From Alcanivorax sp. DG881 (GTDB taxonomy: Bacteria; Pseudomonadota; Gammaproteobacteria; Pseudomonadales; Alcanivoracaceae), in assembly GCF_000155615.1 (NCBI RefSeq), contig NZ_DS989915.1, forward strand, positions 1,412,249 to 1,472,428: a stretch of DNA of 60,180 bases, given 5' to 3'. The first letter of the stretch is position 1, and each line of letters begins with the position of its first letter. The notes beneath the pieces were generated by a model. That model was not told where the DNA came from, did no database searches, and saw nothing but the letters and a program-made list of their open reading frames with translations. Below, one piece after another: positions 4,961 to 49,016 of this stretch. The position numbers and the translations under genes are program-made.

Positions 4961-6281
4961 TAGAACGCTGCACGCTGCACGTCGCACGCTGCATGCCAGA
5001 CACACCCTGCTTGGCCTGCTGGCCATGGCCGTGCTGATGCTGCCGGCCTGGAGCCAGGCCAAGGTGCAGATGCTTGACCGCATCGTCGCCGTGGTTAACG
5101 ACGGCGCCATCATGGCCAGCGAGCTGGATGAGCGAATCAACACCATCGCCCTGCAGTTTCAGGAAAAAGGCCAGCAACTGCCGCCCCCGGCGGTGATGCG
5201 CGAGCAGGTGCTCGATCGCATGGTGCTGGAGCGCCTGCAGCTGCAACTGGCCGAACGGGGCGGTATCAAGGTCGACGACGCCAGCCTCAACCAGGCCCTG
5301 GCCGGCATCGCCCGCCAGAATGGCATGAGCCTGGAAGACTTTGCCGCCGCCCTGCGCCAGGACGGCTACGACTGGCCCCAGTTCCGCGAACAGATTCGCG
5401 AAGACATGGTGATTTCCCGCCTGCAACAACGCAGCGTGGCCTCACGCATTCAGGTAACCGACCGGGAAGTGGATCGCTTTCTGAGCTCGGAACTGGGCAA
5501 GCAGATGTTCCAGGAAGACTTCCACCTGGGCCACATCCTGGTCCGCGTACCGGCTGAAGCCAGCCCGGAAGACGTCACCCAGGCCCGCAGCAAAGCCGAA
5601 AGCATCGTCAAAAAGCTCAATGACGGTGGCGACTTCCAGCAACTGGCGGTGGCCGAATCCGATGGCCCCAAAGCGTTGGAAGGCGGCGATCTGGGCTCAC
5701 GCCCGGCGGCACAATGGCCCACCCTGTTTGCAGAAAATGCCATCAACCTGCAGAAAGGCGAGATTTCCGAACCACTACGCTCCGGCGCCGGCTTCCATAT
5801 TCTCAAGATGATCGACCGCAAAGGCGGTTCCGAGAAAGTCGTTACCCAGTATCAGGTCCGCCATGTGCTGATTAAAACCGACGCCCTGACCAGCGCCGAG
5901 CAGGCCCACAAGCAGGCGATACGGCTCCACGACGAAATCGCCGCCGGCGAGCGACAGTTCAGCGACACCGCCGCCGAATTCTCCGACGACCCGGGCAGCG
6001 CCCGCAGCGGCGGCGAACTGGGCTGGGTCAACAAAGGGGAAATGGTCCCGGAATTCGAGGACATGATGCTCAACACCCCCGTGGGTGAGCTGTCCCCGGT
6101 GTTCGAAAGCCAGTTTGGCTGGCACTTCCTGCGCGTGGATGACGTACGCGATGCGGACATGAGCGCCGAATTCCGCCGCATGCAGGCCACCCAGGCCCTG
6201 CAGAAACGCCGCTTTGAAGAAGAGCTGGAAACCTGGGTGCAGGAAAAACGCAGCGAATCCTATGTGGATATCAGGCTATGA
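4953..6281 (+). CDS. surA: Periplasmic chaperone / peptidyl-prolyl isomerase SurA
   Basis: Periplasmic chaperone for outer-membrane proteins, including LptD. From the ATG at 4953 (ribosome site AGGAGA, 8-base overlap with lptD) the product is 442 residues. The signal peptide ends near WSQA/KVQ at residue 36, the SurA N-terminal core begins at MLDRIVAVVNDGAIMASELDERI, and two parvulin domains cover about 190-288 and 299-400. The signal peptide is odd: its n-region (RTLHAARRTLHARH) is about 20 residues long and internally repeated because it is encoded by a heptamer repeat array (4965-4999). No later ATG leaves a complete signal peptide. Confidence 0.96.
   Translation: MIDRTLHAARRTLHARHTLLGLLAMAVLMLPAWSQAKVQMLDRIVAVVNDGAIMASELDERINTIALQFQEKGQQLPPPAVMREQVLDRMVLERLQLQLAERGGIKVDDASLNQALAGIARQNGMSLEDFAAALRQDGYDWPQFREQIREDMVISRLQQRSVASRIQVTDREVDRFLSSELGKQMFQEDFHLGHILVRVPAEASPEDVTQARSKAESIVKKLNDGGDFQQLAVAESDGPKALEGGDLGSRPAAQWPTLFAENAINLQKGEISEPLRSGAGFHILKMIDRKGGSEKVVTQYQVRHVLIKTDALTSAEQAHKQAIRLHDEIAAGERQFSDTAAEFSDDPGSARSGGELGWVNKGEMVPEFEDMMLNTPVGELSPVFESQFGWHFLRVDDVRDADMSAEFRRMQATQALQKRRFEEELETWVQEKRSESYVDIRL
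4965..4999 (+). repeat. Type 1 heptamer array inside surA
   Basis: Five consecutive 7-base units start at 4965, 4972, 4979, 4986 and 4993. Three are exactly ACGCTGC, one is ACGTCGC and the last is ATGCCAG. They encode the n-region of the SurA signal peptide. The units match the intergenic ACGCNNN arrays found elsewhere in this window. Confidence 0.8.
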
Positions 6282-6285
6282 AGGA

Positions 6286-6313
6286 ACGCCTGACGCCTAA
6301 CGCCGGATGCCTG
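6286..6313 (+). repeat. Type 1 heptamer array after surA
   Basis: Four 7-base units of the ACGCNNN type start 5 bases after the surA stop (first units ACGCCTG and ACGCCTA, last ATGCCTG). I see no facing partner in this gap. Confidence 0.7.
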
Positions 6314-6371
6314 ACAACGCTTGGCCGTGCTAAAACGCAACGCCATTCCCTCCTGCACAAGGTAGAGGGTG

Positions 6372-6395
6372 CCCTCTCCCGTTTGCGGGAGAGGG
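6372..6395. repeat. Perfect 10-bp hairpin, REP-like
   Basis: CCCTCTCCCG and CGGGAGAGGG are perfect inverted arms around a 4-base loop (TTTG) in the surA-pdxA gap. No T-run follows, so a simple intrinsic terminator is unlikely. Similar CCCTCTCCC hairpins are common as extragenic repeats in Proteobacteria. Confidence 0.7.
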
Positions 6396-6448
6396 ACAGG
6401 GAGAGGGAATTGGCGTCCGGGGCCCGGCCTCAGGCATTCTGCTAACCC

Positions 6449-8752: not shown

Positions 8753-8852
8753 ACGCAGGATGCCTAAGGCCTGACGCCCGACGCATGGCCGTTCCGGCCA
8801 TCATTTTTCAAACCCGCGACAGCGGGAGCGTCAGGCATCAGGCATCCTGCGT
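8753..8852. repeat. Type 1 heptamer arrays, facing inverted pair
   Basis: The left arm has five 7-base units from 8753 (ACGCAGG, ATGCCTA and three more). On the other strand four units run from 8852 back to 8825 (ACGCAGG, ATGCCTG and so on). The 25-base arms 8753-8777 and 8828-8852 are complementary at 23 positions. Two smaller hairpins nest inside: ATGGCC/GGCCAT and CCCGC/GCGGG. The whole fills the apaG-apaH gap. Confidence 0.85.
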
Positions 8853-8876
8853 CCGGCTTATCACCGGAGGCGCCTT

Positions 8877-9989: not shown

Positions 9990-11912
9990 ATGAGTATAAT
10001 CAGCCACTACCAGGCCCGGTTTGATGCGACCCAGCAAGAGGAAATGTCGCTGGAAGAGTACCTGGAACTGTGCAAGGACGACCCCAGCGCTTACGCCACT
10101 GCCGCTGAGCGCATGCTGATGGCCATCGGCGAACCGGAAATGGTCGACACCGCCCAGGACCCTCGCCTGTCACGCATTTTCTCCAACAAGATTATCCGCC
10201 GCTACCCCGCCTTCGACGAGTTCTACGGCCTCGAAGAAGTCATCGAAAACATCGTCAGTTATTACCGCCACGCCGCCCAGGGTCTGGAAGAAAAGAAACA
10301 GATTCTCTATTTGCTTGGGCCGGTGGGTGGCGGCAAATCCTCCCTGGCCGAAAAGCTCAAGGCGCTGATGCAGAAAGTGCCCTTCTATGCCCTCAAGGGC
10401 TCGCCGGTAAACGACTCCCCCCTGACCCTGTTCAACCCGGAAGAAGATGGCCCCATCCTCGAAGAGGAATACGGCATTCCCCGCCGTTATATCCGCACCA
10501 TCATGTCGCCCTGGGCGGTCAAGCGTTTGCATGAATTCGGCGGCGACCTGAGTCAGTTTCGCGTGGTAAAACGCTACCCCTCCATTCTCGACCAGGTCGC
10601 GGTGGCCAAAACCGAACCCGGCGATGAAAACAACCAGGATATTTCCGCCCTGGTGGGCAAGGTAGACATTCGCAAGCTGGAAGACTTCTCCCAGGATGAT
10701 CCGGACGCCTACGCCTTTTCCGGGGGGCTGTGCCGGGCCAACCAGGGCCTGCTCGAGTTCGTGGAAATGTTCAAGGCACCGATCAAGGTGCTGCACCCAT
10801 TGCTCACCGCCACCCAGGAAGGAAACTACAACGGCACCGAACACATGGGCGCCATCCCTTTCGATGGCATGGTGCTGGCGCACTCCAACGAAGCCGAGTG
10901 GCATACCTTCCGCAACAATAAAAACAATGAAGCCTTTATCGACCGTGTCTATATCGTCAAGGTGCCTTACTGCCTGCGCGTCACCGAAGAAATGCAGATC
11001 TATGACAAGCTGCTGCGCAACTCAAGCCTGCGTGATGCCCACTGCGCACCGGACACCCTGCACATGCTCGCGCAATTCTCCACACTCACCCGGCTGAAAG
11101 AACCGGAGAATTCCAGCATTTATTCAAAGATGCGCGTTTACGATGGCGAAAATCTGAAAGATGTGGATCCCCACGCCAAATCCATGCAGGAGTACCGCGA
11201 CATGGCCGGCGTGGATGAAGGCATGGCCGGGCTCTCCACCCGCTTTGCTTTCAAGATTCTCTCCAAGGTATTCAACTATGACCACTCGGAGGTAGCGGCC
11301 AACCCGGTTCACCTGATTCATGTGCTGGAGCAGCGCATTGAACAGGAACAGTTCCCCCAGGAAAAATCGGAACAGTACCGCCGCTTCATCAAGGAATACC
11401 TGGTGCCCCGCTACGTAGAGTTCATCGGCAAGGAAATCCAGACCGCTTATCTCGAATCTTACTCGGAATACGGCCAGAACATTTTCGACCGCTACGTAAT
11501 CTATGCGGATTTCTGGATTCAGGATCAGGAGTTCCGCGACCCGGATACCGGTGAAATTTTCGACCGCCAGGCGCTCAATGAAGACCTGGAAAAAATCGAA
11601 AAACCGGCCGGCATTTCCAACCCCAAAGACTTCCGCAACGAAGTGGTCAACTTCGTCCTTCGCGCCCGCGCCAACAACCACGGCAAGAACCCCAGCTGGC
11701 TAAGCTACCAGAAACTGCGCGATGTGATAGAGAAAAAAATGTTCTCCAACACCGAGGACCTGCTGCCCGTCATTTCCTTCAACGCCAAAGGCAGCGAGGA
11801 CGACCAGCGCAAGCACAATAACTTTGTGCAGCGCATGGTATCGCGGGGCTACACGGAGAAGCAGGTAAGGCTGCTATCCGAGTGGTACCTGCGGGTGAGA
11901 AAGGCGCAATAG
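9990..11912 (+). CDS. PrkA family serine protein kinase / AAA+ protein
   Basis: Orthologue of E. coli YeaG: an AAA+ ATPase domain followed by a PrkA kinase-like C-terminal domain, linked in E. coli and Bacillus to stationary phase and nitrogen or sporulation stress. The 640-residue product is full length. It shows YLLGPVGGGKSSLAEKL (Walker A, about residue 109), then HSNEAEWHTFRNNKNNEAFIDR and YCLRVTEEMQIYDKLL. The ATG follows a strong AGGAGGAAG site. It is followed by yeaH and spoVR homologues on the same strand, a conserved trio, although here a 179-base gap with a paired repeat separates it from yeaH. Confidence 0.94.
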   Translation: MSIISHYQARFDATQQEEMSLEEYLELCKDDPSAYATAAERMLMAIGEPEMVDTAQDPRLSRIFSNKIIRRYPAFDEFYGLEEVIENIVSYYRHAAQGLEEKKQILYLLGPVGGGKSSLAEKLKALMQKVPFYALKGSPVNDSPLTLFNPEEDGPILEEEYGIPRRYIRTIMSPWAVKRLHEFGGDLSQFRVVKRYPSILDQVAVAKTEPGDENNQDISALVGKVDIRKLEDFSQDDPDAYAFSGGLCRANQGLLEFVEMFKAPIKVLHPLLTATQEGNYNGTEHMGAIPFDGMVLAHSNEAEWHTFRNNKNNEAFIDRVYIVKVPYCLRVTEEMQIYDKLLRNSSLRDAHCAPDTLHMLAQFSTLTRLKEPENSSIYSKMRVYDGENLKDVDPHAKSMQEYRDMAGVDEGMAGLSTRFAFKILSKVFNYDHSEVAANPVHLIHVLEQRIEQEQFPQEKSEQYRRFIKEYLVPRYVEFIGKEIQTAYLESYSEYGQNIFDRYVIYADFWIQDQEFRDPDTGEIFDRQALNEDLEKIEKPAGISNPKDFRNEVVNFVLRARANNHGKNPSWLSYQKLRDVIEKKMFSNTEDLLPVISFNAKGSEDDQRKHNNFVQRMVSRGYTEKQVRLLSEWYLRVRKAQ

Positions 11913-11921
11913 CAATAGGAG

Positions 11922-12075
11922 ACGCAGCATGCTTCACGTAACACGCAACAACACGACATAACGGTTTTAGCGTTACGCATTGCTCTCTCCGCGCATTAGC
12001 GCGATCGCGGAGACAACGTCAAAAGCCGCTCAAGCCCCACCCGCGTTGTTGCGTCAAGCGTGTCGCGTGAAGCTG
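11922..12075. repeat. Type 1 heptamer arrays, facing inverted pair
   Basis: The left arm has four units at 11922-11949 (ACGCAGC, ATGCTTC, then two more). The right arm, read on the other strand from 12075 to 12048, has four units (CAGCTTC, ACGCGAC, then two more). The arms could pair imperfectly across about 100 bases. A smaller CTCCGCG/CGCGGAG hairpin lies between them. Confidence 0.75.
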
Positions 12076-12091
12076 CTTCCGGAGGAAGCCC

Positions 12092-13372
12092 ATGAGCTAC
12101 ATCATTGACCGTCGCCTGAACGATAAACGCAAAAGCACCGTGAACCGGCAGCGCTTCCTGCGCCGCTATCGTTCGCACATTCGCGATGCCGTCAACGATG
12201 CGGTCAGCCGCCGTTCCATCAAGGACATGGAACAAGGCGAGCGGATAAGCATTCCCCGCAAGGACCTGTCCGAACCCATTTTCCATCACGGCCCCGGTGG
12301 GCAACGCAGCATCGTCCACCCGGGCAACCAGGAATTTCATCAGGGAGACCGCATTCGCCGCCCGGACGGTGGCGGCGAAGGCGGGCCCGGCGAGGGCCAG
12401 GCCAGTGATCAGGGTGAAGGCAATGATGAATTCGCCTTCGAAATCGACAAACAGGAATTCCTGAATTTCCTGTTTGAAGACCTGGAGCTGCCCAATCTTC
12501 TCAAGCGTCACCTGGAAGGGGCACAGATCTTTCAACACCGTCATGGCGGCATCGTCAGCCAGGGCATGCCCGCCAAGATCAATATCGTCCGCTCCATGCG
12601 CCAGGCCTCCATGCGCCGCCGCGCCCTCACCGCCGCCACGCGCAAGAAAATACGCACCCTGAAAGCCGAGCGGGATGCACTGCTGGAACAGGATCAGTCG
12701 CCACAACGGCAAGCACGTTTGCACGAGCTGGATGAGCAGATCGCCCGGCTGGAACGCCGGGTGGAACGCATTCCTTTTCTGGACACGGTGGACCTGCGCT
12801 ATAACCACCACGTCAAAGTCCCGGTACCCGTCAGCCGGGCGGTTATGTTCTGCATCATGGATGTGTCCGGCTCCATGAATCAGGACATGAAAGACCTGGC
12901 CAAACGCTTCTTTCTGCTTCTTTACCTGTTCCTTGAGCGTAACTACGAGCATATCGAGGTGGTCTTTATCCGCCACCACACCAGTGCCAAGGAAGTGAAT
13001 GAAGAAGAATTTTTCTACTCCCGGGAAACCGGCGGCACCATCGTATCCAGCGCGCTGAAGCTGACCCGCGACATCATCGAGGAACGCTACCCGGTTGACG
13101 AATGGAACCTGTATGCCGCCCAAGCCTCGGACGGTGACAACTGGAACGATGACTCACCCGCCTGCGCCAAACTGATCGAAGACGAGCTGCTTCCCAAGCT
13201 GCAGTACTTTTCCTACGTAGAGGTCATGCCACGGGCCCACCAGGCGCTCTGGGACCATTACCAGAACATTATGCAGCGGCACCCGTCTGCCTTTTCCATG
13301 GCCCAGATTGATGAGCCCGGGGAGATTTATCCGGTATTTCGCGAGCTGTTCAAAAAACGCATGGAGACCTGA
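12092..13372 (+). CDS. YeaH/YhbH family protein (DUF444)
   Basis: Homologue of E. coli YeaH and Bacillus YhbH; biochemical function unknown, co-expressed with the PrkA kinase. The 426-residue product has a basic N-terminus ([22 protein letters not shown]), a glycine-rich acidic linker near residues 85-115, and a coiled-coil-like segment around 185-230. A von Willebrand A-like domain carries a MIDAS-type DVSGSMNQ at about residue 257. It ends 2 bases before spoVR. The start follows a GGAGGAAG site immediately after the repeat pair. Confidence 0.92.
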
Positions 13373-15842: not shown

Positions 15843-15850
15843 GATTTTCT

Positions 15851-16008
15851 CCGCTTCAAGCTACACGCAACACGCATCAACGCGCTCATCGTTGCCTTTT
15901 GATTTGCCACCTCAGCGCCCGCGCTCAAACATTTGTGCGCGGGCAGTGCTTCAGGACTCCGGCTTGCGTTGATTCGCGTTGTTGCATGGAGCCTGTTGCG
16001 TGAAGCGG
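15851..16008. repeat. Type 1 heptamer arrays, facing inverted pair
   Basis: The left arm has four units at 15851-15878 (CCGCTTC, AAGCTAC, then two more). The right arm, read on the other strand from 16008 to 15981, has four units (CCGCTTC, ACGCAAC, then two more). A perfect inner hairpin GCCCGCGC/GCGCGGGC spans 15917-15944. The element lies between the divergent transporter gene and cca. Confidence 0.75.
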
Positions 16009-16014
16009 CCCCAT

Positions 16015-16053: not shown

Positions 16054-16193
16054 GCTAACTGAAACTTTCAGTCACACAGCCGTCGTCCCTGCGCACGCCA
16101 TTTGCGTGCACAGCGGTCTGCGACTAGAGAGTTCAGTTTCAGTACGATAGAAAGCATGCGACCATTCTGCTCAAGAACTCACAGGCAAACAAG

Positions 16194-18635: not shown

Positions 18636-19549
18636 CGCTTGCTCTCACCCTCAGCCTCCTGCTCGGCGGCATCGCCCGGGCAGAAATTTTCCAGTGGCGT
18701 GACGCCAACGGCAAATTGCATTTCGGTGACCGCCCGCCGGAAGATGCACAAACCCAAACCGTCACCCCGGATATCAGCCCGCAACTCAAAGAACTCGAGA
18801 TCAACGTCAAACGTCAGGACTTCACCCTGTCTGGCGACTTGCAGCAACAAACGCTGGATAACATTAGCAACATCTACCAGCGCTACCGCCGGGACTTCGG
18901 CCTGGACCTGCATGGCACTGCGGAAGTGAACCTGTACCTGATTGAGAAACAGGACGACTTCCAGCAATGGATGGTTGACCGGATTGGTACCAGCAGCCGC
19001 CATTATGCGGGCGTCTTTATTCCTGCCACCAATGAAGTGGCGGTGTGGCAATGGGCCGAGGATGAACGGCAAGTTGCCCAGACTATCCTGCATGAATCCA
19101 GCCACGTTCTGCTCTACCAGTTATCTCCCTCGGCCCCGGTCTGGCTGCAGGAAGGCCTGGCACAATATTTTCAGACCCTGGAGACGCAACCGGACGGCCG
19201 CCTGAAAATCAGTGCGCTGCCGGATGCCCAGCAGCGGGTTCAGACCTGGATCGAACAACAGCGCCTGATTACTCTGCGGCAGTATCTGTCCCTGGACGAT
19301 GCGCAATGGCGAAAAATGGCCCACCAGCTCAACGCCATTCCCTATACGGTTGCCTGGGCCACTACCGCTTTTCTCATGTCCAAACCCGTGGGCCGCGCCA
19401 CCCTGCGACAAATGCTTCAGGACCTGGAAAAAACCCACCAGCGTCCAACATTACAGCGTATCGAGCACCTCTATCCGGGTGGTATTTCGCGGCTGGAATA
19501 CGATTTCTTTCGTTGGGCCCAAAGCGATATGGCACCGCATTGGTATTAA
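18623..19549 (+). CDS. DUF4124 plus gluzincin-like metallopeptidase, exported
   Basis: Exported 308-residue protein: signal peptide ending near ARA/EIF, DUF4124 (EIFQWRDANGKLHFGDRPP), then a peptidase-MA-like domain. The zinc-binding HExxH is H157-E-S-S-H161, and EGLAQYF supplies a likely third ligand, E177. The start is TTG at 18623, inside the end of the preceding gene, with only a weak ribosome site, so translation may depend on coupling. The shared N-terminal module suggests the two genes arose by duplication or are partners. Substrate unknown. Confidence 0.78.
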   Translation: MRFLALALTLSLLLGGIARAEIFQWRDANGKLHFGDRPPEDAQTQTVTPDISPQLKELEINVKRQDFTLSGDLQQQTLDNISNIYQRYRRDFGLDLHGTAEVNLYLIEKQDDFQQWMVDRIGTSSRHYAGVFIPATNEVAVWQWAEDERQVAQTILHESSHVLLYQLSPSAPVWLQEGLAQYFQTLETQPDGRLKISALPDAQQRVQTWIEQQRLITLRQYLSLDDAQWRKMAHQLNAIPYTVAWATTAFLMSKPVGRATLRQMLQDLEKTHQRPTLQRIEHLYPGGISRLEYDFFRWAQSDMAPHWY

Positions 19550-19554
19550 GAGAG

Positions 19555-19582
19555 ACGCAACACGCTTCACGCTACAAGCTGC
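19555..19582 (+). repeat. Type 1 heptamer array after the metallopeptidase gene
   Basis: Four perfectly phased 7-base units start 6 bases after the stop codon: ACGCAAC, ACGCTTC, then two more ending GC-N3. Confidence 0.75.
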
Positions 19583-19630
19583 AACGCAAGCCAGGTAACC
19601 CCTGAAAAACTCCCTGCATCACTGATTTTC

Positions 19631-21437: not shown

Positions 21438-21440
21438 AAA

Positions 21441-21511
21441 AGTGACGAGGTACGAGTTTCGAGTCCCGAAAACCAGACTGTCCCGGGTTTTGACTTTCAT
21501 AACTCGTCACT
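21441..21511. repeat. Type 2 heptamer array with facing partner
   Basis: Four units at 21441-21468 (AGTGACG, AGGTACG, then AGTTTCG and AGTCCCG as the next pair). On the other strand two units run 21511-21498 (AGTGACG, AGTTATG). The outer GTGACGAG/CTCGTCAC arms are perfect. It lies in the plsY-tsaD convergent gap and belongs to the same family as 725-814. Confidence 0.75.
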
Positions 21512-38700: not shown

Positions 38701-41700
38701 CATCCGCCAGACCACTGAGGTCCGCCGGGTCCGCCGACCAGGACAGGTCGCCCTGTACCTGGGCCGTGGTGGTGACCGTGGTCACCCCATCAGTGATTTC
38801 CACCTGAACGGTACGGCCAGGCTCCACATCGGTCACGGTGCCGTTAACCACCGTGGCCAGCGATTCATCCGCGTTGATCACATCGCCTTGGTCCAGGGAG
38901 ATGACCGTAATAACGGCATTGGGGTCGTGCTCAATGGTGGCGGTCGCGCTGGCCGGGTTACCGGCGTTGTCCACGGTGTCTGCGGTCAGGGTGAGCGTGC
39001 CCGGCGCCAGACTGCTCAGGTCCTCGGTGGTGGACCAGGTGCCATCGCCCTGCACCTGGGTGACAAAGGTAAGCTGCCCGCCCTGGGTATCGGTGACCGT
39101 CAGGTTCACGTCGTCCCCGGCCTCCACATTACTCACCGTGCCGGACAGCACGGTGGCGTCATCTTCCGCGTCATTGAGAATGCCGGTGTTGCCTTCGAAT
39201 ACCTGCGCATCTTCAAAGCGGGCAGTGATGGTGGCCTCGGTATCCTTGTCGAAGGTGAAGGTCTGGGTCGCTTCATTACCGGCGATGTCGGTACCGGTGA
39301 GCGTCATGGTCAGCTCACCGTCGGCCAGGGTCGTCAGGTCCACGCCATCCAGGGCCCAGTTATTCACGCCGTCCAGGCTCTGGTCACCATTGACCGTGAC
39401 CGTGGTGGTCACGCTGTTGCCGCTCTGGTCGGTAATCTCCACATCCAGAACCCGGCCACCCTCAATACCGGTGACTGTGCCGGACAGGTCCACCCCGGCG
39501 GCGACTTCAGCGGCATTCAGCACGCCATCGTCCAGTGCCGGGCTGGCCAGATCAGCATTGATGCTGGCCACCGGATCGTAGATGAAGTTGTCTGTGGCCG
39601 TGGCGGTGTTACCGGCCTGGTCGGTGACCGTGGCGGTGAGGGTCAACTCGCCCAGCTGCAGGGACGACAGGTCCACATCCGCTGCCGACCACAACTCACC
39701 GCTCACCGTTACGCCCGGCACGTTCACCGTATTGCCGAATGCGTCTTCCACGGTGACGGTCACCGTCTGGCCGTCTTCCACCAGCGGCGCCGTGCCCTGC
39801 AGGGTCACGGTGGGGAATTCCGTGGCGTTGTAGTAACCGCCCACGCCGTCCGGCACCTGTTCGTCCACGAATTCGGCGGTGATTTCCGCCTGGGTATCCT
39901 TGGTAAAGGTAGCCGTCTGGGTGGCCGGGTTGCCGGCTTCGTCGGTGGTGCTGGCTTGCAGCGTCAGCGAGCCATCATCCAGCCCGGACAGATCCACGTC
40001 AGCCAGCAGCCAGGTGCCATCTGCCGCAATGGTGGCGGTGCCTTCGACACTATTGCCGCCGCTGTCGGAAATCGTGATGGCCACATCCCGGCCGCTTTCC
40101 ACGTCGAACACGGAACCGGTGAAATCCACGTCACCCTGTTCCGCCGTGTTGATGCTGTTACCGGCATCGGACGCGATGTCCGCCACCAGCTGCGCCACCG
40201 GATCGTACTCGATGGTGTCGCTGGCGGTGGCCTCATTGCCGGCCACGTCCTGAGCCACTACTGCCAGCACCAGCGCCCCTTGCGCCAGCGAGGACAGATT
40301 GGCACCGCTGACTTGCCAGGCACCGCCGGTGACGGTGGCCGAGAAGGTCAGGGTGTCATCGTTGATATCGGTAATGGTGATGTCGACAGTCTGGCCGTCT
40401 TCGATACCGGTGACCGTACCGCCGAAGCTGGCGCTCTGCCCTTCCACCGCGTTCAGGTAGCCGGTGATGCCCTCAGGCTGCTGGGGGTCGTCGTACAGCG
40501 CGGTGATTTCCGCACTGGTGTCCTTGAGCACCGTATCGGTAATGCTGGCCGGGTTACCGGCCTGGTCCACGGTGTCGGCGGTGAGCGTCAGGTCGCCATC
40601 ATTAAGACTGCTCAGATCTGCGTTAGGCACGGACCAATTGCCGGCGGCATCCAGCGTTGCCTGAAACGTCAGATCCGAGTTCACCCCATCGCTGACGGTG
40701 ATATCCACCACCGCGCCGGGCTGCACGAATTCGAAGCTGCCGGAAAGAATCGTGTCCGGGGACTCATCGTTGTTGAGCACATCATCGGCCCCGGTGTCGG
40801 CGGTAATGCTGATACCGTTGGCCAGGGTGTCTTTCAGGAAAGTGTCGGTGCGGGAGGCATCGTTGCCGGCAATATCGGTACCGGTCAGGGTCACCGTCAG
40901 GGTGCCGTCTTCCAGGGCAGACAGGTCCGCGTTGGCCAGCGTCCAGCTGCCATCGGCGGCAATGGTCACCGTATCCGTAAAGGTACCGCCAAGGCTGTCC
41001 TCGATGAGGACATCCAGCGTGCGTCCGGGCTCGATATCGGTGACGGTACCGGATAATTCCACGCCCGCCGCCACTTCGGCGGCATTGACGGTATCGTCGC
41101 CAGGCTGCGGCACTGAAAACGCCGGGCTGGTGATGTCATCATTGATGATCGCCACCGGATCATAAATGAAGGTATCGGTGGCAGTGGCCGTGTTTCCCGC
41201 CTGGTCAGTCACCGTGGCAGTGAGCGTAATATCGCCCTGCTGCAAGGCCGACAGATCCACATCCGGTGCCGACCAGGTTTCGCCACTGACGGTGACACCC
41301 GGCACATTCACCACATTGCCGAATGCGTCTTCCACGGTGACGGTAACCGTCTGGCCGTCTTCCACCAGCGGCGCCGTGCCCTGCAGGGTGACGGTGGGGA
41401 ATTCCGTGGCGTTGTAGTAACCGCCCACGCCGTCCGGCACCTGTTCGTCCACGAACTCGGCGGTGATTTCCGCCTGGGTATCCTTCACGAAGGTAGCGGT
41501 CTGGGTGGCCGGGTTGCCGGCTTCATCGGTGGTATCAGCAGTGAGAGTCAGGGTGCCTTCATCCAGGCCGCTGACGTCCACATCTGCCAGCAACCAGGTG
41601 CCATCCGCCGCGATGGTGGCGGTGCCGGTCACCGTATTGCCACCGCTATCCTCGATGCTGATGGCCACATCCCGGCCGCTTTCCACATCGAAAACCGAGC

Positions 41701-44632
41701 CGGTGAAATCCACCTCACCCTGTTCCGCCGCATTGATACTGGTTCCTGCATCAGCGGCAATATCCGCCACCAGCTGCGCCACCGGATCATATTCAATCAC
41801 GTCGCTGGCGGTGGCCTCGTTGCCCGCCGTGTCAGACGCAACCACGGTCAGTGTCAGGTCGCCTTGCGCCAGCGAGGACAGGTCTTCACCGTTCACCTGC
41901 CAGGCGCCACCAGTGACAGTGGCCGAGAACGTCAGAGTGTCATCGTTGATATCGGTAATGGTGATAGCGACGACCCGCCCGTCTTCGATGCCGGTAACGG
42001 TACCTCCGAAGCTGGCGCTCTGGCCTTCCACCGCGTTCAGGTAACCGGTAATGCCTTCCGGCTGCTGCAGATCGTCGTAGAGTGCGGTGATCTCTGCACT
42101 GGTGTCTTTAACGACCGTGTCGGTAATAGACGCCGGGTTGCCCGCCTGATCCACAGTCTCGGCGGTCAGCGTCAGGTCGCCGTCATTGAGGCCACTCAGA
42201 TCCACATTGGGCACGGACCAGTTGCCGCTGGCATCCAGGGTCGCCTGAAACGTCAGCGCCGGGTTCACCCCATCGCCAACGGTGATATCCACCACCGCGC
42301 CTTCCTGTACGAAGTCGAAACTACCGGACAGGACGGTGTCGGGGGCTTCCTGGTTATTCAGTACCGCATCGGCGCCGGTATCAGCCGTGATGCTGATACC
42401 ATTGGCCAAAGTGTCTTTCAGGAAATTGGTGATCTGGGTCGCTTCGTTGCCCGCGATATCGGTGCCGGTGAGCGTCAGGGTCAGCGGGCCATCCTGGAGC
42501 GTGGAAAGGTCAGCGCCGGTGAGACTCCAGCTACCATCAGCGGCAATGGTGACGGTATCGGCAACACTGCCACCGGCCCCATCCTCAATCAGCACATCCA
42601 GTGTGCGACCGGCTTCGATATCGGTGACCGTACCGGAAAAATCCACACCCGACGCCACTTCGGCGGCATTGACGGTGTTGTCATTCACCACCGGCACAGA
42701 AAACGCCGGGCTGGTCACATCATCGTTGATGATGGCAATGGGGTCATAAATAAAGCTGTCTACCCCAAACGCCGGGTTACCGGCAAAATCCGTGGTGCTG
42801 GCCAGCACAAAAATCTGGCCCGGTTCCAGGCCGGACAGATCAACGTTATCCGCCTGCCAGGTATTGCCCGAAATCGTGACCCCGCTCACTACCACCACGT
42901 TGCCGAGAATGTCGCGAACCTGGATATCCACCGGAAGCCCGTCACTGATGAAGTTGGCACTCCCCTGCAGGGTCACCCCATCGGAGGCCTCATCGGCATT
43001 GTAGTAGCCGCCGACACCATCCGGGGTCTGCTCATCGACGAACTCGGCGGTCAGGTCGTTAAGGGTATCCTTGAAATAAAAGGTCTCACGGGTGGCTTCG
43101 TTACCGGCCAGATCCGTGGTGGTCACCGATAACGTCAGCAGGCCCTCCTCCAGCCCGGTCACATCTACACCGGTGAGAGACCAGCTGCCATCAGACTGCA
43201 CCGTTGCGGAACCGCTGGCACTGTTGCCGTTGCCGTCCTCGATGACGATGTCCAGCTCACGGCCGGGTTCCACGTCGTTGACCCGGCCATTGAAGTCCAC
43301 GTCGGCGACTTCAGCGGCATTCAGAATGCGTCCCACATCGGACGTAATCGGACGCGGAATTTCGGCGACGGGATCGTAAATAATGGTGTCGCTGGCGGTC
43401 GCCGGGTTGCCGGCCACGTCTTCCACGCTGGCTTCCAGCGTCAGCTCACCAGGCGCCAGTGAAGACAGGTCCTGATTGTCGAGCTGCCAGGCGCCACCGC
43501 TGACCTGGGCAGTAAAGGTAAGACTGTCGCCGGCTTCATCAGTGATGACCAGAGTCACCGTCTGGCCATCTTCAACCTCCGTGACCGTGCCGGTGAAACC
43601 GGCCATCTGGCCTTCCGCGGCATTCAAATAACCGCCCACGCCATCCGGCTGCACCGCATCGACAAACTCGGCGGTGATGGCCGCCTGGGTATCCAGGTCC
43701 ACGGTATCGGTGATGGTCGCCGGGTTGCCGGCCTGGTCCACGGTGCTGGCGGTGAGGGTTAGCGTACCGTCGTCGAACACGTCCAGATCCACGTCGGGGA
43801 TCGACCAGTTGCCACTGGCATCCAGCGTGGCGGTCAATACCAGATCCGCGTGCCCGGCGCCGCTGACAGTCACCTCCACGTCGGCTCCCGCCTGCACATC
43901 GGCAAAGGTACCGCTAAGGGTGTTATCCACCGCTTCCACCGCATTGACCACATCATCAGTGCCGGTGGCGGCTTCCACATCCACACCACTGGCCAGCGTA
44001 TCCTTGATGCTGTCGTCGGTGCCGGTAACCCGGTTGCCGTAAGGGTCCTGATAGGTAGCGACCACGGTGAGCGGCCCTTCCGCCAGTGAACTCAGGTCTG
44101 CATCGGGCACCGAGAAGCGGCCATCCTGCACCACGGCCGTAAAGGTGACAGAACCGCCCTGGCCATCCAGAACGATCACATTCACCACGGTGTCATCGAG
44201 AATATCGGTGGTGGTGCCCACCAGATCCACCGCATCCTGCTCAAAACGGTTTACGTAACCATCGCCGCCATCCTGAATCTGGATACTGATAGCGGCATCA
44301 TTGGGGAGCAGGTCCGGGGGCGGACCCTGCCTGGTATCACGGGAATGGTCCCCGGCATCGACCACGCCACGGGTCTGGTACCCGGAAGCCGGGATATCAC
44401 CTGCACCATCACGGGAAACATTGGTGAAGAAAGACGCCAGTGAGGACTGGCTTGAAGAGGACGCCAGATCGGCTTCCGGGCTGCTGCTCTCCGGAAATTC
44501 CAGCAAGGGGACATCGGGAAGAACCGCTTCTCCAGGTTCCAACGGAACCAGAGAACCATCCTCCATCAACTTCCATACGACCCCATTCAGGTTCAAATAC
44601 GCCTGAATAGCCACTGCACTTCCTTCTGCCAT
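29798..44632 (-). CDS. Giant type I-secreted RTX/Ig-like adhesin (LapA-like)
   Basis: Surface adhesin of 4,944 residues in one uninterrupted frame, likely used for biofilm formation or attachment to surfaces or oil. N-terminus (1-100): a short retention-like segment (GVVWKLMEDGSLVPLEPGEAV) and a Ser/Pro-rich linker. About 111-2421: roughly 22 Ig-like modules of about 105 residues with the recurring DLSxLxDGxLTLT and DxAGNxA motifs. The first 15 are arranged as three copies of a five-module block. About 2550-3370: VCBS-like segments around four T1SS-143 repeats of about 150 residues. About 3370-4700: modules with DxDGSExL. About 4818-4838: RTX nonapeptides (GGDGDDTLTGGAGADSF), then a C-terminal type I secretion signal. 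It is highly acidic, and I noticed no cysteine. Confidence 0.95.
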   Translation of the reverse strand: MAEGSAVAIQAYLNLNGVVWKLMEDGSLVPLEPGEAVLPDVPLLEFPESSSPEADLASSSSQSSLASFFTNVSRDGAGDIPASGYQTRGVVDAGDHSRDTRQGPPPDLLPNDAAISIQIQDGGDGYVNRFEQDAVDLVGTTTDILDDTVVNVIVLDGQGGSVTFTAVVQDGRFSVPDADLSSLAEGPLTVVATYQDPYGNRVTGTDDSIKDTLASGVDVEAATGTDDVVNAVEAVDNTLSGTFADVQAGADVEVTVSGAGHADLVLTATLDASGNWSIPDVDLDVFDDGTLTLTASTVDQAGNPATITDTVDLDTQAAITAEFVDAVQPDGVGGYLNAAEGQMAGFTGTVTEVEDGQTVTLVITDEAGDSLTFTAQVSGGAWQLDNQDLSSLAPGELTLEASVEDVAGNPATASDTIIYDPVAEIPRPITSDVGRILNAAEVADVDFNGRVNDVEPGRELDIVIEDGNGNSASGSATVQSDGSWSLTGVDVTGLEEGLLTLSVTTTDLAGNEATRETFYFKDTLNDLTAEFVDEQTPDGVGGYYNADEASDGVTLQGSANFISDGLPVDIQVRDILGNVVVVSGVTISGNTWQADNVDLSGLEPGQIFVLASTTDFAGNPAFGVDSFIYDPIAIINDDVTSPAFSVPVVNDNTVNAAEVASGVDFSGTVTDIEAGRTLDVLIEDGAGGSVADTVTIAADGSWSLTGADLSTLQDGPLTLTLTGTDIAGNEATQITNFLKDTLANGISITADTGADAVLNNQEAPDTVLSGSFDFVQEGAVVDITVGDGVNPALTFQATLDASGNWSVPNVDLSGLNDGDLTLTAETVDQAGNPASITDTVVKDTSAEITALYDDLQQPEGITGYLNAVEGQSASFGGTVTGIEDGRVVAITITDINDDTLTFSATVTGGAWQVNGEDLSSLAQGDLTLTVVASDTAGNEATASDVIEYDPVAQLVADIAADAGTSINAAEQGEVDFTGSVFDVESGRDVAISIEDSGGNTVTGTATIAADGTWLLADVDVSGLDEGTLTLTADTTDEAGNPATQTATFVKDTQAEITAEFVDEQVPDGVGGYYNATEFPTVTLQGTAPLVEDGQTVTVTVEDAFGNVVNVPGVTVSGETWSAPDVDLSALQQGDITLTATVTDQAGNTATATDTFIYDPVAIINDDITSPAFSVPQPGDDTVNAAEVAAGVELSGTVTDIEPGRTLDVLIEDSLGGTFTDTVTIAADGSWTLANADLSALEDGTLTVTLTGTDIAGNDASRTDTFLKDTLANGISITADTGADDVLNNDESPDTILSGSFEFVQPGAVVDITVSDGVNSDLTFQATLDAAGNWSVPNADLSSLNDGDLTLTADTVDQAGNPASITDTVLKDTSAEITALYDDPQQPEGITGYLNAVEGQSASFGGTVTGIEDGQTVDITITDINDDTLTFSATVTGGAWQVSGANLSSLAQGALVLAVVAQDVAGNEATASDTIEYDPVAQLVADIASDAGNSINTAEQGDVDFTGSVFDVESGRDVAITISDSGGNSVEGTATIAADGTWLLADVDLSGLDDGSLTLQASTTDEAGNPATQTATFTKDTQAEITAEFVDEQVPDGVGGYYNATEFPTVTLQGTAPLVEDGQTVTVTVEDAFGNTVNVPGVTVSGELWSAADVDLSSLQLGELTLTATVTDQAGNTATATDNFIYDPVASINADLASPALDDGVLNAAEVAAGVDLSGTVTGIEGGRVLDVEITDQSGNSVTTTVTVNGDQSLDGVNNWALDGVDLTTLADGELTMTLTGTDIAGNEATQTFTFDKDTEATITARFEDAQVFEGNTGILNDAEDDATVLSGTVSNVEAGDDVNLTVTDTQGGQLTFVTQVQGDGTWSTTEDLSSLAPGTLTLTADTVDNAGNPASATATIEHDPNAVITVISLDQGDVINADESLATVVNGTVTDVEPGRTVQVEITDGVTTVTTTAQVQGDLSWSADPADLSGLADGPITINVSVFDNAGNEATNSYPATKDATAEITVMFEDDFINDGFGGYLNADEDDTTTVSGTVTDVEDGQTVEVVITDSAGIEVTGSAMVAGGAWSLDNLDLSGLEEGPLTVSATVTDQAGNPVSASDDIIHDTLASIDDTVQVSAGVVINAAEATSVTLSGTTAEIEQGRPLEVTLNDGTSTLTFNTTVASDGSWTLTNLDLSSLDDGTLTVTLNSDDRAGNPATASDTVDKDTLAQVTVEFLDDADTTLGPNGEIVYNAAGVSEVQLQGTVTGVEDGQTVSIVLTDSAGNQITVPDATVSGGTWSAGPVDLTGFVDGGLTAQVSTEDQAGNPATASTQADIDLGVFIDIDTGPDGLPLTPFLLRAVDELTGTTDAEDGQIVTVTLSDGTTTNTFTGTVSGGAWTVPVDASGLSLQTQWTLNAQVTDLAGNTTADSTPTLIEPEAVVLSETQLETGGIDQDSGDIRIQEADEVTFSATQDSLAAMTSESSAVTVVVAPDGQSLSVIRDSDGQTVMTLALNAAGDSVNASLLLPVDQRPALDKSLFQVAINATQNDADGTSETIAANIQLVVNDSSPFAEDDTAEVIEDTSAGGNLFDNDTGLEAPFTLDVITLDGVDYAVALNSPAVVNTDKGALTVYQDGSWTLDAARNLDHQVVQELAFSYTGSDGDGDSSSADVLITIKDGAAGVAISDNGMITEAVITQLNQPATTVTIEAGSDDLVADTARFYNDAGQQESLLNDLGLTSLGQPLSYQVAADGSSITAMAGGVVVFVATLDAVAQANGDLTIGLEMDLRRPLDHLNSDQLNLPFAIIATDTDGTDVDPGLFQLEIDDGQNPILNESTSVALDEDSLDGQPSISAQGTVDVAVGSDRIESLGFAAGSSQPGLSSGGEPLQYQLSADGQTLTAYTDDVNNPVFVATLLDPVAGEADSTINYDFTLYQALDQLDSNGNRQDPLPVPLRLRTEDSDGDVVNLNLGIEISDADDPAAVIIDTLDVSELPAKNGSHLTGTDSVDVDITASEDPVVEVAFQVGNGTNVMDAGGQPVTQNGVQLQWYVANNQTLEARVNGQTVLRFTLPSDVEIASGSSGTVPLDLEILGPVDHLDSDLMSLTIPVAAIDADGSMALADVAVDIADGRDPTVHPAPPGVLDEDGLENGATPEGTSSVEVQAGSDQVVATTVAMTSVVTSGGLAVTLAASANANGWWVATTSAGDAVFQVRVETDGSASMQLLGPLDHPEGDNTRDSINVSFDVSVTDADNDVSGDSHLTFHVADDVPEGATLERTITEGDDIAGNLLADANTVGADGGLLTQVTYRGVDYTFDAQDPVTIILTDVTDNQYGVMTLHSDGNFTVDTDDVFNIGGAFDTDTMQAVVTDGDGDTANLDLTLNVRDADGTLVVQPVEGDEDTALTVDLRADPGDLDQGDTITRITFDNAALEGGTLMLDGQPLPVDGSGNPYLDQSSLVPDGSGAVIPDGVLTFTPALNSSLQTLDPQLDMTVDVSLSDGSTREFTESEPITVHSVADAPLWDTPASEVALHEDDPATAVNISAELFDTDGSETLSYRLDSFDDELILELNGSVLSAGATLSGADFANLTVRAEDGVAGNYQFDVTAISTEQENGDTAETAHTVNVAVTPVADPPNLRPTGTLNELEDAQIDVSRLVSASLNDVDGSESLQLRLDVPEGWSVIGQNGAVVSNPQTGRYLADMADVEAGNVLLIPKEDISSVSVPGGLFQVNLTAVATESTQDGLDPDPETATSNTATVNIKLTGVVDDPQFTPDQDGAWTWNGDVDNSVLTGTLDEDSLLSLSFMLGSSDDDGSERSDLVIGNLNPNVDLVDVNGDPIALQVVGENGDGLIYQVSASQLANIYLRPQADFSGAEPAFTIRQVISEPDGDSESFSHDVMLDNLPVVDTQDGENIVSSGVEDEVVTLNLLPNLLDSDGSETLTELVITGQGAGQLMFDGETISVPPGGLDLGQLASDEGLTLMELANSGRLTWRPPEDASGTFSVPVTYQITDTSETGETAVADYTGNLQVDVSAQVDVDGEDLPDLTRLEGPDAVLTNDGSGLDLSGSVLFVEDDIDGSETLDYIVIRMPAADGWFVEHPDGAVHDGNGNWLIPAAGLTSDTAVENGLDLLAGVTIYSETATGVETILVQARALDGSDAEMISAEVDVEFTGGAAGTAQAVDSIQDSIIDGQEGETVDTAGHLNTGAAGDANDQVSFRVDAADLPPGASLAGTDIRVLHGSDGKTVVEYVFTQATLNDLTVVGIDEDIAGVISIPVTSVSTDPSGDTVTTQDSLDIELAPVVDEVNEIPGISGLEDVATSLDVDLDALLADRSTDGAEGLESVQSITFLALPEGSFVDPEGLLADNGDGTFTLSDPSRISDIYFLPPQHLSGTFNVNMELTILDEVSGALTVVSNTDTQTVPGSIEIEIEPVTDPGTVTAADITGAEDSDIPLGDLQAELVDQDGSETLTVVLQGVPKDAVILVDGVPVANNGPDGGSLFGEPTFQWSLPQADLANAVIRPPANFSGDIPLTLQAVTLETGTNDVRTASQDFTVFVNPVGDGVEFNGADVSASGQEGDDVTIEVNAKTLEPDYVTDGHPRDGNEGMVLTVQVADTSQATALLGLQGIRVGERTVSFQQVGGVTVAIMALSAAELADGRVLDSFELLTGQLAFGNLDLNIRIASTDQAVVNGETVNAISPPQLQQVSVQLTALPDAPDVDLGFDNFYVEAGAGDVPLAIDMEALNPAPGEEATLIVEGVPDNIQLSAGTQVDGHWEVPADQVPGLALVNPGTVSDFTLTVYGRSELDGEAAEGDPQTLDVSVHGAGATVITGTAQNDWIAGGDGDDTLTGGAGADSFVFRQADLLGAGNDASDTITDFSVTDNDRLDLSDLLAGTPATNGTELDAVIDIQDNGTSVVFTISPDGQAVSQVVTLDNTSETELFGGDVSGLTEAEMLQQLLDNQVLIT
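39566..41149 (-). repeat. Adhesin higher-order repeat, copy 3 (five Ig-like modules)
   Basis: 1,584 bases encoding residues 1162-1689, from IINDDITSPAFSVP to the next FIYDPVA. It is closely similar to copy 2 at a fixed offset of 1,584 bases. For example 39781-39901 and 41365-41485 differ at only 2 of 121 positions. Confidence 0.9.
41150..42733 (-). repeat. Adhesin higher-order repeat, copy 2 (five Ig-like modules)
   Basis: 1,584 bases encoding residues 634-1161, from IINDDVTSPAFSVP to FIYDPVA. The same order of five distinguishable Ig-like module types occurs as in copies 1 and 3. Confidence 0.9.
42734..44300 (-). repeat. Adhesin higher-order repeat, copy 1 (divergent)
   Basis: The N-terminal block of about 1.57 kb encodes roughly residues 111-633 and carries the same five module types in the same order as copies 2 and 3 (for example DTLASGVDVEAATG matches DTLANGISITADTG). 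It is clearly more diverged. The upper boundary is approximate. Confidence 0.75.
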
Positions 44633-46948: not shown

Positions 46949-47006
46949 GCCGGCCCATGCAACACCCCCAGGGTTGCATTGACTGGCCGTAGCCCCCACA
47001 TCCCGG

Positions 47007-47012
47007 TATAAT
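47007..47012 (+). promoter_or_regulatory. rpoD -10 element
   Basis: A perfect TATAAT about 70 bases upstream of rpoD. A TTGACT occurs further upstream, but the 22-base spacer is too long; no better -35 was found. A perfect ATGCAAC/GTTGCAT inverted repeat (46957-46979) lies just before it. Confidence 0.5.
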
Positions 47013-47083
47013 ACGCCGTTTTCCCACGCCACCATCACGCTGGCCAGCGCAAGCTTCCAGCACGACGTTACGGGCTTTATTGC

Positions 47084-48985
47084 ATGACGACTCAAAAGCA
47101 GCAGCAACAATCTCAGCTGAAGCAGTTGATCGCACTGGGTAAGGAACAGGGCTACCTTACCTACGCCGAAGTGAATGACCACTTGCCGGATTCCATTACC
47201 GACACTGATCAAGTGGAAGACATCATTCAGATGATCAACGACATGGGCATCACCGTGGTGGAAAAAGCCGCCGATGCCGATCAGTTGACGATCGATGAAA
47301 GCGCCGACAGCACCGACGAAGTCGCCGCTGAAGAAGCCGCTGCCGTGCTCGCCTCCGTAGAAAACGAACCCGGCCGCACCACCGACCCGGTGCGCATGTA
47401 CATGCGCGAAATGGGTACCGTGGAGCTGCTGACCCGCGAAGGCGAAATCGAAATTGCCAAGCGTATCGAAGAAGGCACCCGTGAAGTCCTGCACGCCCTC
47501 GCCTTCTGGCCCGGCGCCGTCGACATGGTGATCGACGAATACGCTCGCGTGGAAAACGAAGAACGCAAGCTCACCGACATCATTGCCGGTTACCTGGACC
47601 CCAACGACGATGGCGCTGCGGCAACCAACGTCAACCGGGATCCTGCCTTCGCCGAAAAAGCCAAGAAAGCGGCGGAAGAAAAAGCCAAGGCCAAAGAAAA
47701 AGCCAAGGAAGAAGGCACTGACGACAAAGACAGCGACGACGATGAAGAAGAAGATGAAGGCGGCCTGGATCCTGTTCTGGCGGCAGAGCGTTTCGAGACG
47801 CTGAAAAAGCTGCACGAAAAAGCCGAGCGCTCACTCAAGCGCAACGGTCGCGATCACGCCTCCAGTGCCAAGGCTCTGGAAGCCCTGGCCGAACACTTCA
47901 CCCTGTTCAAACTGGTGCCGCGCATTTTCGACGGCATGCTGGTTGGTGCCCGCGACAACCTGGACCTGGTGCGTAAATTCGAGCGTCAGATCATGTCCGC
48001 CACCATTCGCCGCGGCGGCATGGATCGCAAGGATTTCATCAAGGTATTCCCTGGTAACGAAACCAACATGGACTGGATCGATGGCCAGCTGAAAACCAAA
48101 AAAGGCAAAGCCATCGCCGACAAACTCGGTGCAGTCAAAGAAGATGTTCAACGTGCCCAACGCAAGATCGGCACCATTGAAGACATCATTGGCCTGCCCG
48201 TGGGCGACATCAAGGAAATCAACCGTCGCATTTCCATCGGTGAAGCCAAGGCACGTCGCGCCAAGAAAGAAATGGTGGAAGCCAACCTGCGTCTGGTTAT
48301 TTCCATCGCCAAGAAATACACCAACCGTGGCCTGCAATTCCTCGACCTGATTCAGGAAGGCAACATCGGCCTGATGAAAGCCGTGGACAAGTTCGAATAC
48401 CGCCGTGGTTACAAGTTCTCCACCTACGCCACCTGGTGGATTCGTCAGGCCATCACCCGTTCCATCGCCGACCAGGCGCGCACCATCCGTATCCCGGTAC
48501 ACATGATAGAGACCATCAACAAGATCAACCGGGTACAACGTCAGATGCTGCAGGAAATGGGCCGCGAACCGACCCCGGAAGAACTGGGTGTCCGTCTGGA
48601 AATGCCGGAAGACAAAGTCCGCAAGGTACTGAAGATCGCCAAAGAGCCGATCTCCATGGAAACCCCCATCGGTGACGATGAAGATTCCAGCCTCGGCGAC
48701 TTTATCGAAGACGGCAACATGGAATCGCCGGTGGACTCTGCCACTTCACTGGGCCTGGAAGAAGCCACCCGTGACGTGCTGGCCAACCTGACCGCTCGTG
48801 AAGCCAAAGTCCTGCGCATGCGCTTCGGCATCGACATGAACACTGACCACACCCTTGAGGAAGTGGGCAAACAGTTCGACGTAACCCGTGAGCGTATCCG
48901 TCAGATAGAAGCCAAGGCGCTGCGCAAACTGCGCCACCCGAGCCGCAGCGAACACCTGCGCAGCTTCCTCGACGGCGACCTGTAA
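47084..48985 (+). CDS. rpoD: RNA polymerase primary sigma factor (sigma-70)
   Basis: Housekeeping sigma factor. The 633-residue product has region 1.1 at the N-terminus, [31 protein letters not shown] (region 1.2), and a non-conserved region. Region 2 ([37 protein letters not shown], then [19 protein letters not shown]) and region 3 follow. Region 4 ends with a helix-turn-helix ([31 protein letters not shown]). The non-conserved region holds an extreme charged run at about 186-228: a Lys/Ala/Glu stretch followed by an Asp/Glu-rich tract. The start follows the -10 element by about 70 bases. Confidence 0.98.
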
Positions 48986-48988
48986 AGA

Positions 48989-49016
48989 ACGCCCGACGCT
49001 AGAAGCCGGATGCAAG
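48989..49016 (+). repeat. Type 1 heptamer array after rpoD
   Basis: Four phased 7-base units start 4 bases after the rpoD stop: ACGCCCG, ACGCTAG, then two more. Confidence 0.7.

Follow-up and report, generated by a model that had tools for sequence, protein, structure and literature searches.

The window, a stretch of 60,180 nucleotides from Alcanivorax sp. DG881, carries a series of short arrays with a 7-base unit, many of which are halves of inverted pairs of the same type. Two CGAGTNN-type pairs have their 5' arms at 722..753 and 21438..21474 (+ strand) and their facing 3' arms at 787..814 and 21484..21511 (- strand). An ACGCNNG-type pair between apaG and apaH (8753..8789, +, and 8828..8859, -) contains a 25-nt inverted repeat that is 92% complementary. 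One ACGCNNC-type pair (11922..11955, +, and 12042..12073, -) contains a 28-nt inverted repeat that is 71% complementary, and its 3' arm ends right before a ribosome-binding site. Another (15848..15885, +, and 15980..16008, -) occupies a site that has an AGTTNAA-type pair in the nearest relative. The ACGCNNG-type array just 3' of surA (6286..6318, +) has a weak facing arm at 6412-6435. Single arrays follow stop codons at 19548..19584 (ACGCNNC-type, +), for which no facing arm was found, and at 48989..49017 (ACGCNNG-type, +), upstream of a tRNA at 49160. Lastly, an ACGCNNC-like array (4963..5000, +) lies inside the start of surA as modelled, a frame (4953..6281) that includes the tract at 4965; five of seven Alcanivorax relatives also have an array at the surA start. 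An Rfam search found no rRNA in the window and one tRNA only. The window's own arrays are not accompanied by a gene of PF05635 (also TIGR02436), the family of the 23S rRNA-intervening-sequence protein, or IVP, also named 'four helix bundle protein'.

The first-pass annotation of this DNA had reported tracts with an exact 7-base period at 11 coordinates. The observation is real, yet wider than stated. At ten of those coordinates, period-7 self-matching is 12 to 17 of 21 positions; control-lag windows score this high at a frequency of at most 0.0024. At the other, 7449, self-matching is 10 of 21, as it is in 2.1% of control windows, and an array there is therefore unsupported. Facing arms had been recognized near some arrays; the annotation missed that arrays often form inverted pairs with a partner of their own type, and it missed the pairs at 722/787 and 21438/21484.

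The period extends well beyond the window. Our genome sample, 860 kb in all, comprised the window and 40 stretches of 20 kb taken systematically. Comparison with dinucleotide-shuffled sequence, which had been suggested as a check, favours the claim: 63 intergenic tracts in the sample have at least four GC dinucleotides phased at period 7, versus 5.0 in the shuffles, and the remaining periods from 3 to 15 give 2 to 14 tracts, near chance. A second scan, with a motif-free detector over 1.26 Mb, found 112 intergenic arrays at lag 7 and 54 at lag 14, and 2 to 5 at each of lags 5, 8, 10, 11 and 13. Most gene-less arrays (147 of 174) have 4 to 6 units; because detection needs about four units, only the drop above six is informative. 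For the same reason we dropped unit counts per arm as support for five protein subunits.

The arrays do not form a single ACGCNNN family. About seven types of heptad occur, and in each of them five bases form a core while the other two vary; the consensus given earlier covers two of these types. Phase is indeed held while some bases vary, but mainly two of the seven are free and not three. Among framed arrays, 170 of 171 are non-uniform, with the variation concentrated at two of the seven positions, and they differ in this from STRR repeats, which are tandem copies of one uniform heptamer. One explanation for such arrays is that 7-nt polymerase slippage makes heptamers and mutation erodes them; no protein would be needed, and IVP genes would just share the spacers in which this happens. 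Slippage has been reported as a hypothesis for heptamers (PMC4692102), and perfect arrays do differ in copy number between species (e.g., L002 17614 and L126 2047). However, slippage does not account for the confinement of variation to two positions, for the inward-facing pairing of arrays of the same type, or for a tie to one gene family that is widely above that of control genes (see below). We consider it an unlikely explanation.

Most of the scattered heptad repeats pair up as the inward-facing arms of small hairpin elements located at gene ends. Of 41 neighbouring arrays that face opposite ways, 35 are of the same type, compared to 7.7 expected. Among intergenic regions of at least 60 bp, a typed array is present in 44 of 112 convergent, 66 of 387 co-directional and 8 of 159 divergent regions, bearing out the earlier proposal that the family is found across the genome, close to the 3' ends of genes. 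This placement is what would be expected if the elements were RNA hairpins, similar to REP or BIME sequences, that act in mRNA 3'-end stability or termination, with the heptads making a slippage-tolerant stem where any hairpin would suffice. One site is taken up in other species by REP-type or CACCACAGAG palindromes, and at L014 1388 an intrinsic terminator in this genome corresponds to a heptad pair in the relative. Against this, exact RNA pairing is apparently not selected. On the coding strand, the arms mismatch by G-U 34 times and by A-C 33 times, and agreement at the variable positions is about the same between elements (0.70 and 0.54) as within them (0.70 and 0.61). There is also no clear unit-level covariation between the arms, and we found selection for exact pairing unsupported. 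A hairpin function also leaves both the IVP genes and the period unexplained, and we regard it as improbable. Copying from arm to arm as the cause of matched types was likewise not supported, given the similar agreement between and within elements.

Several arm types enclose an inner AGAGGCCGCG hairpin (10 places by a strict pattern). This hairpin may be just a common terminator, as opposed to a sign of one ancestral element with varied arms. By eye, the interiors of gene-less elements are unlike those of elements with an IVP gene.

The first-pass annotation did not link the arrays to IVP genes. Of 68 IVP loci, 55 have a heptad array on each flank of the gene (45 of 57, then 10 of 11 further ones): 25 of 34 in Alcanivoracaceae, 6 of 9 in other genomes of the class, and 24 of 25 on plasmids, these last spanning five phyla. 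The earlier comparison with cyanobacterial heptamers was apt, as 19 of 20 IVP genes examined on cyanobacterial plasmids have arrays on both sides. At lags 4-6 and 8-13, arrays on both sides were found at 0 or 1 of the 57 loci and at none of the 11. Control genes have them in 5 of 468 cases (genes of 80-170 residues) or 43 of 2237 (all genes), and on three plasmids of the IVP plasmid set in 0 of 117. An inverted reading of the arms beats a direct one in 38 of 45 loci. Thirteen of the 68 loci do not reach the threshold used for arrays on both sides, and no array is present at one plasmid locus, L307. All IVP loci that we read are intergenic; insertion in 23S rRNA was not seen among them. Since like arms flank the IVP gene in several phyla, the repeats probably belong to the IVP protein.

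This genome has four IVP genes, with arms of types ARTNAAT, AGCTNNN, ACGCNNG and ACGCNNC, and each type also occurs here without a gene. CGAGTNN and AGTTNAA elements are also present, though none of the four genes has such arms. In our reading, the window's arrays are relatives of IVP elements that have the arms but lack the gene.

Heptads and IVP genes also co-occur from genome to genome. In two genera, the 24 genomes with an IVP gene between nrdR and glyA have 43-425 matches to its heptad patterns, and the six genomes without it have 0-6. For the AGC and AAGT types of the second genus, there are 12-290 matches with a matching IVP and 0-58 without (p 0.011). Across these comparisons of IVP presence with heptad abundance, descent is controlled only by looking within one genus. 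There are exceptions: G021 has no IVP match, yet 106 ACGC matches; G020 has an ACGC-armed IVP, yet no ACGC match; and G044, with 41 CGAGTNN matches, lacks any IVP match. Agreement between arm subtype and genome-wide subtype is weak (7 genomes for and 4 against, p 0.11; G005 and G008 go the other way). Protein identity correlates with arm similarity (rho 0.29, permutation maximum 0.11). Shared descent alone could give this correlation, and we therefore set it aside as evidence of recognition.

The elements could instead be ordinary MITEs that are moved by an unrelated transposase, with the heptads as its binding sites and IVP as a passenger. They have inverted ends and dispersed copies, and copy number differs widely between species (2 to 549 ACGC matches among genomes having any). 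However, IVP was the sole gene noticed between arms in an unsystematic look, and most sites are common to the nearest relative. We mapped 58 regions in which at least one of the two genomes has an array; 34 of them carry an array in each genome, and a looser test adds 14. Nor are heptads found with RAYT genes. A simple core scan of the genome's five PF01797 (RAYT-type) loci, two of them partly masked, found none within about 1.5 kb; one locus has GCTCCTAC sites, one has TGGGAAG sites, and three have neither. These loci bear out the earlier view that REP sequences are not the explanation, and a RAYT/REP origin is unsupported. We consider ordinary MITEs the least probable of the alternatives.

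We think it fairly likely that the heptad arrays are arms of dispersed palindromic elements that are recognized in trans by the IVP protein. The parent element would be a small IVP gene between two inverted heptad arrays, located between genes or, in certain bacteria, within 23S rRNA in the form of an intervening sequence. Both structures of PF05635 proteins returned by a profile search of solved structures, 2rld and 2gsc (XCC0516), have five chains. Most likely, such a five-chain protein would bind in trans the five-base core of its own heptad type, with about one subunit per heptad and the two variable bases serving as spacer. Recognition of the core only would hold phase and core, let the spacer drift, and keep both arms alike. 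The ligand could be either RNA or DNA. We suspect that the arms would fold and be cut out of transcripts in the way known for rRNA intervening sequences, and that the elements could spread. PF05635 proteins are said to resemble the Avd protein (PMC10053308), although no Avd entry was listed among the solved structures by the search that returned 2rld and 2gsc.

A more far-reaching version is possible, and we hold it tentatively, judging it rather more doubtful than not. A ring of five IVP subunits might read about five RNA heptads per arm and control or propagate gene-less hairpins in trans. Drift in the protein would then rewrite the heptads on both arms at many sites. The heptamers of cyanobacteria, Xanthomonas, Beggiatoaceae and Alcanivorax, together with 23S rRNA intervening sequences, would form one selfish or regulatory class across phyla.

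A tie between heptads and IVP would give the repeats a defined protein and the PF05635 protein a defined ligand, each testable. Structures of PF05635 proteins have been solved, and the portions of the literature searched give no established function. The tie would also give a plain reason why IVP genes are found within defence operons, those of cas included. In Nostoc and in Anabaena, one plasmid each carries a heptad-flanked IVP gene between cas2 and cas1, and 18 IVP genes in cas loci have been listed (PMC3936711).

Known systems share some of these features. As with the elements described here, REP/RAYT systems consist of numerous palindromes that carry no gene and lie at gene ends, together with a protein gene or a small number of them. 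They differ in protein family, and the RAYT gene is flanked by its own repeat, an arrangement that the heptads here do not have with RAYT genes. TRAP is a ring of eleven identical subunits that reads (G/U)AG-NN repeats, short cores with free spacer bases. The mode that we propose for IVP would be analogous, with an unrelated protein, heptads in place of pentads, and five chains in place of eleven.

According to PMC4692102, many bacteria have an excess of heptameric repeats, which as of 2015 had not been treated in detail. Xanthomonas GGGAATC and Nostoc GGGGA(C/T)T are also intergenic heptamers, the former with 70 and 75 convergent pairs, and unlike the Alcanivorax arrays they have one fixed unit and were interpreted by the authors as G-quadruplex formers (PMC4692102). 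X. campestris itself encodes a PF05635 protein, XCC0516. Marine Beggiatoaceae have many short intergenic sets of TAACTGA, and such sets occur in cyanobacteria too; in contrast to the Alcanivorax arrays, this is one fixed heptamer, mostly direct and mostly just upstream of start codons (PMC4679880).

In the portions of the literature searched we found no general link between heptad arrays and IVP genes, and the heptamers of the Coxiella 23S rRNA intervening sequence are the nearest case. That sequence encodes S23p and has tandem heptamers before the gene and a 28-bp terminal stem, and excision by RNase III is known for rRNA intervening sequences (PMC4990558). The intervening sequences with S23p/IVP in Coxiella, Leptospira and others resemble the gene-bearing parent elements, which also have a PF05635 gene between terminal inverted repeats; the Alcanivorax elements differ in being intergenic, mostly gene-less, and present in hundreds of copies. 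If our reading is true, rRNA intervening sequences would be one niche within a wider class of elements.

We conclude with very high confidence that the heptad arrays, intergenic tracts with a period of seven bases, are real and not a product of chance. The 3.80-Mb DG881 genome, which contains the window and whose nearest named relatives are Alcanivorax, was sampled by 60 stretches of 20 kb each, in which genes were called with a simple codon model. The first-pass annotation had described phased heptamer tracts, and these stood up to comparison with dinucleotide shuffles: the first 860 kb contain 63 intergenic tracts with at least four GC at period 7, compared to 5.0 after shuffling. At the other periods examined (3 to 6 and 8 to 15), the same 860 kb yielded 2 to 14 intergenic GC tracts each. 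A motif-free test, with a minimum of 15 matching positions out of 21 at the chosen lag, found 112 intergenic arrays at lag 7 and 54 at lag 14 in 1.26 Mb, and 2 to 5 at lags 5, 8, 10, 11 and 13. Over the whole genome, a strict ACGC pattern has 47 and 55 matches on the two strands and its reversed control has none.

Reading the arrays distinguished about seven types (ACGCNNC, ACGCNNG, CGAGTNN, AGTTNAA, AGTNGAY, ARTNAAT and AGCTNNN). When adjacent units are compared in a common frame (622 comparisons), positions 4 and 5 differ in 52 and 53% and the remaining five positions in 14 to 24%. There are exceptions: the ACGC types have C/T variation at position 1, and the variable positions are 2 and 4 in ARTNAAT, 4 and 7 in AGTNGAY, and 3 to 5 in CGAGTNN. 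Among spacers of at least 60 bp, arrays are present in 44 of 112 that are convergent, 66 of 387 that are co-directional and 8 of 159 that are divergent (Fisher p 2e-9 for convergent and 4e-8 for divergent, computed on slightly different counts). Paired elements fill a median of 63% of their spacer, and their median distance from a flanking stop codon is 10 nt, compared to 20 for random placement.

In the first sample, 78 of 120 arrays face an arm whose score exceeds that of shuffled flanks. Because this score depends on complementarity, the pair test was redone with independently detected, typed arrays. Typed neighbors within 250 bp face inward in 41 of 42 pairs, and both arms are of a common type in 35 of these 41 (permutation mean 7.7, maximum 18). 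Stretches from G009, the nearest relative compared, and other Alcanivorax loci gave 39 of 42 pairs facing inward, 34 of the 39 being of one type. The orientation of each type was fixed from the 5' arms, and thus the polarity count measures consistency within types and provides no independent direction. For many arrays no typed partner is present (42 pairs among 174 typed arrays). Exact arm-to-arm pairing does not seem to be the conserved property of heptad elements.

Other repeats were also seen, some beside the arrays or in their place. Next to the heptad pair at 15848-16008 is a perfect 14-nt inverted repeat (window 16015-16053) that contains A and T tracts and resembles a two-way intrinsic terminator. 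A 28-nt inverted repeat (window 19630-19709) is 89% complementary with TGTGGGAAG ends; TGGGAAG sites near a RAYT-type gene (PF01797) at locus L121 make it look like a separate REP family. In place of the heptads at window 11912-12092, another species has a CACCACAGAG palindrome (L046, 14342-14470), and L044, L045 and L052 have GTAGGAGC palindromes. At L143 (18544-18846), a GTAGGAGC REP pair encloses a CGAGT-type heptad pair in its loop, and part of this inner pair is missing in the relative, indicating that one class of element can nest in another. The window also contains a single open reading frame of 4944 codons on the minus strand (29798-44632), with smaller frames of the same orientation after it.

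Array types change between species. G009 is 91.6% identical to DG881 in long matches, and 266 intergenic regions could be mapped between them: 208 are array-free in both and 34 have an array in both, while 19 have one in G009 only (12 with a looser match in DG881) and 5 in DG881 only (2 with a looser match in G009), a few of these calls being unconvincing by eye. Assigned types differ at 9 of the 34 common regions. For example, window 15843-16193 is ACGCNNC in DG881 and AGTTNAA in G009. Two perfect heptamers, AGCTACG and AAGCTAG, adjoin each other at L002 (17613-17731) and at the corresponding site in G009; their copy numbers differ between the two species, making this an active 7-bp variable-number repeat. 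Another of the nine regions with differing types is L024 (2764-3212), where both arms are ARTNAAT in DG881 and AGTNGAY in G009, although the ~380 bp between them are mostly orthologous.

This inner stretch of L024 is a gene. Its frame belongs to PF05635 (23S_rRNA_IVP; TIGR02436, 'four helix bundle protein'), a family (IVP) found in 29 of 46 Alcanivoracaceae genomes and 3 of 8 genera. We read 68 IVP loci: 34 from Alcanivoracaceae (30 from the profile search plus L024, L141, L211 and L272, with L192 left out as a duplicate of L271), 9 from other genomes of the class, and all 25 plasmid matches, in batches of 14 and 11. Heptad arrays lie within 300 bp on each side of the gene at 45 of the first 57 loci (Alcanivoracaceae 25/34, rest of the class 6/9, plasmids 14/14) and at 10 of the remaining 11. 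Two-sided arrays with other lags (4 to 6 and 8 to 13) occur at 0 or 1 of the 57 and at none of the 11. Control genes have them in 5 of 468 cases (80 to 170 residues) or 43 of 2237 (any size), and in 0 of 117 from three of the plasmids examined. The inverted reading of the arms is better than the direct one in 38 of the 45; several of the remaining 7 carry two or more arrays per side. Of the plasmid records, 20 are from Cyanobacteriota, one each from Spirochaetota, Bacteroidota and Bacillota, and two from Chloroflexota. Several plasmid loci are homologous (L291, L303 and L304; L294, L305 and L306) and two (L285 and L302) match PF05635 without an annotated gene, so the set does not amount to 25 independent intact genes. 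We consider it well supported, and likely, that heptad arrays belong with IVP elements.

Heptad-flanked IVP genes lie between cas2 and cas1 on Nostoc and Anabaena plasmids (L287, L290). An IVP gene directly precedes cas1 in L293, and others are within restriction or DISARM/BREX-like operons (L285, L294, L306).

Comparison of the flanking sequences places 31 of the 34 Alcanivoracaceae loci at four conserved sites (10, 9, 7 and 5 loci) and leaves three singles. Arms at the ten-locus site are of type AGC, AAGT, CAAGT, GAGT or AGGATNC, depending on the species, and the two sides are alike in all 9 loci with both arms read. Thus, IVP genes are mostly inherited in place and the arm type changes on both arms.

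IVP presence is also associated with heptads genome-wide. The nrdR-glyA type of IVP occurs in 24 of 30 genomes of two genera (confirmed by the flanks in seven, and assigned in the rest according to profile position and score). Those 24 have 43 to 425 ARTNAAY plus ARTNGAY matches, overlapping matches included, and the 6 without it have 0 to 6 (Fisher p 1.7e-6, kinship ignored); the second genus alone gives p 0.004 (8 vs 5 genomes). In that genus, AGC plus AAGT matches number 12 to 290 with a matching IVP and 0, 0, 0, 0, 1, 2 and 58 without (p 0.011; 0.021 leaving out G022, in which one of two IVPs was read). ACGC matches range from 0 to 549 where an ACGC-armed IVP was seen and 0 to 106 otherwise (p 0.0014, with part of the IVP flanks read). 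Across the family, a total of 10 or more matches of three patterns is reached by 25 of the 29 genomes that carry an IVP and by 1 of the 17 that lack one, a comparison confounded by genus. The nrdR-glyA arm subtype predicts the subtype of the genome weakly (p 0.11). There are counter-examples: G021 has 106 ACGC matches and G044 has 41 CGAGTNN matches, each without an IVP match, and G020 has an ACGC-armed IVP and no ACGC matches.

For the mode of action of these elements we offer a proposal, in which a ring of IVP would read one five-base core per subunit and leave the two spacer bases free. Such reading would account for the period, for a core that stays fixed beside a free spacer, for the match between arms and for their usual length of four to six units. 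According to PMC4990558, rRNA elements of the same kind are excised by RNase III, and heptad elements in mRNA may share this fate.
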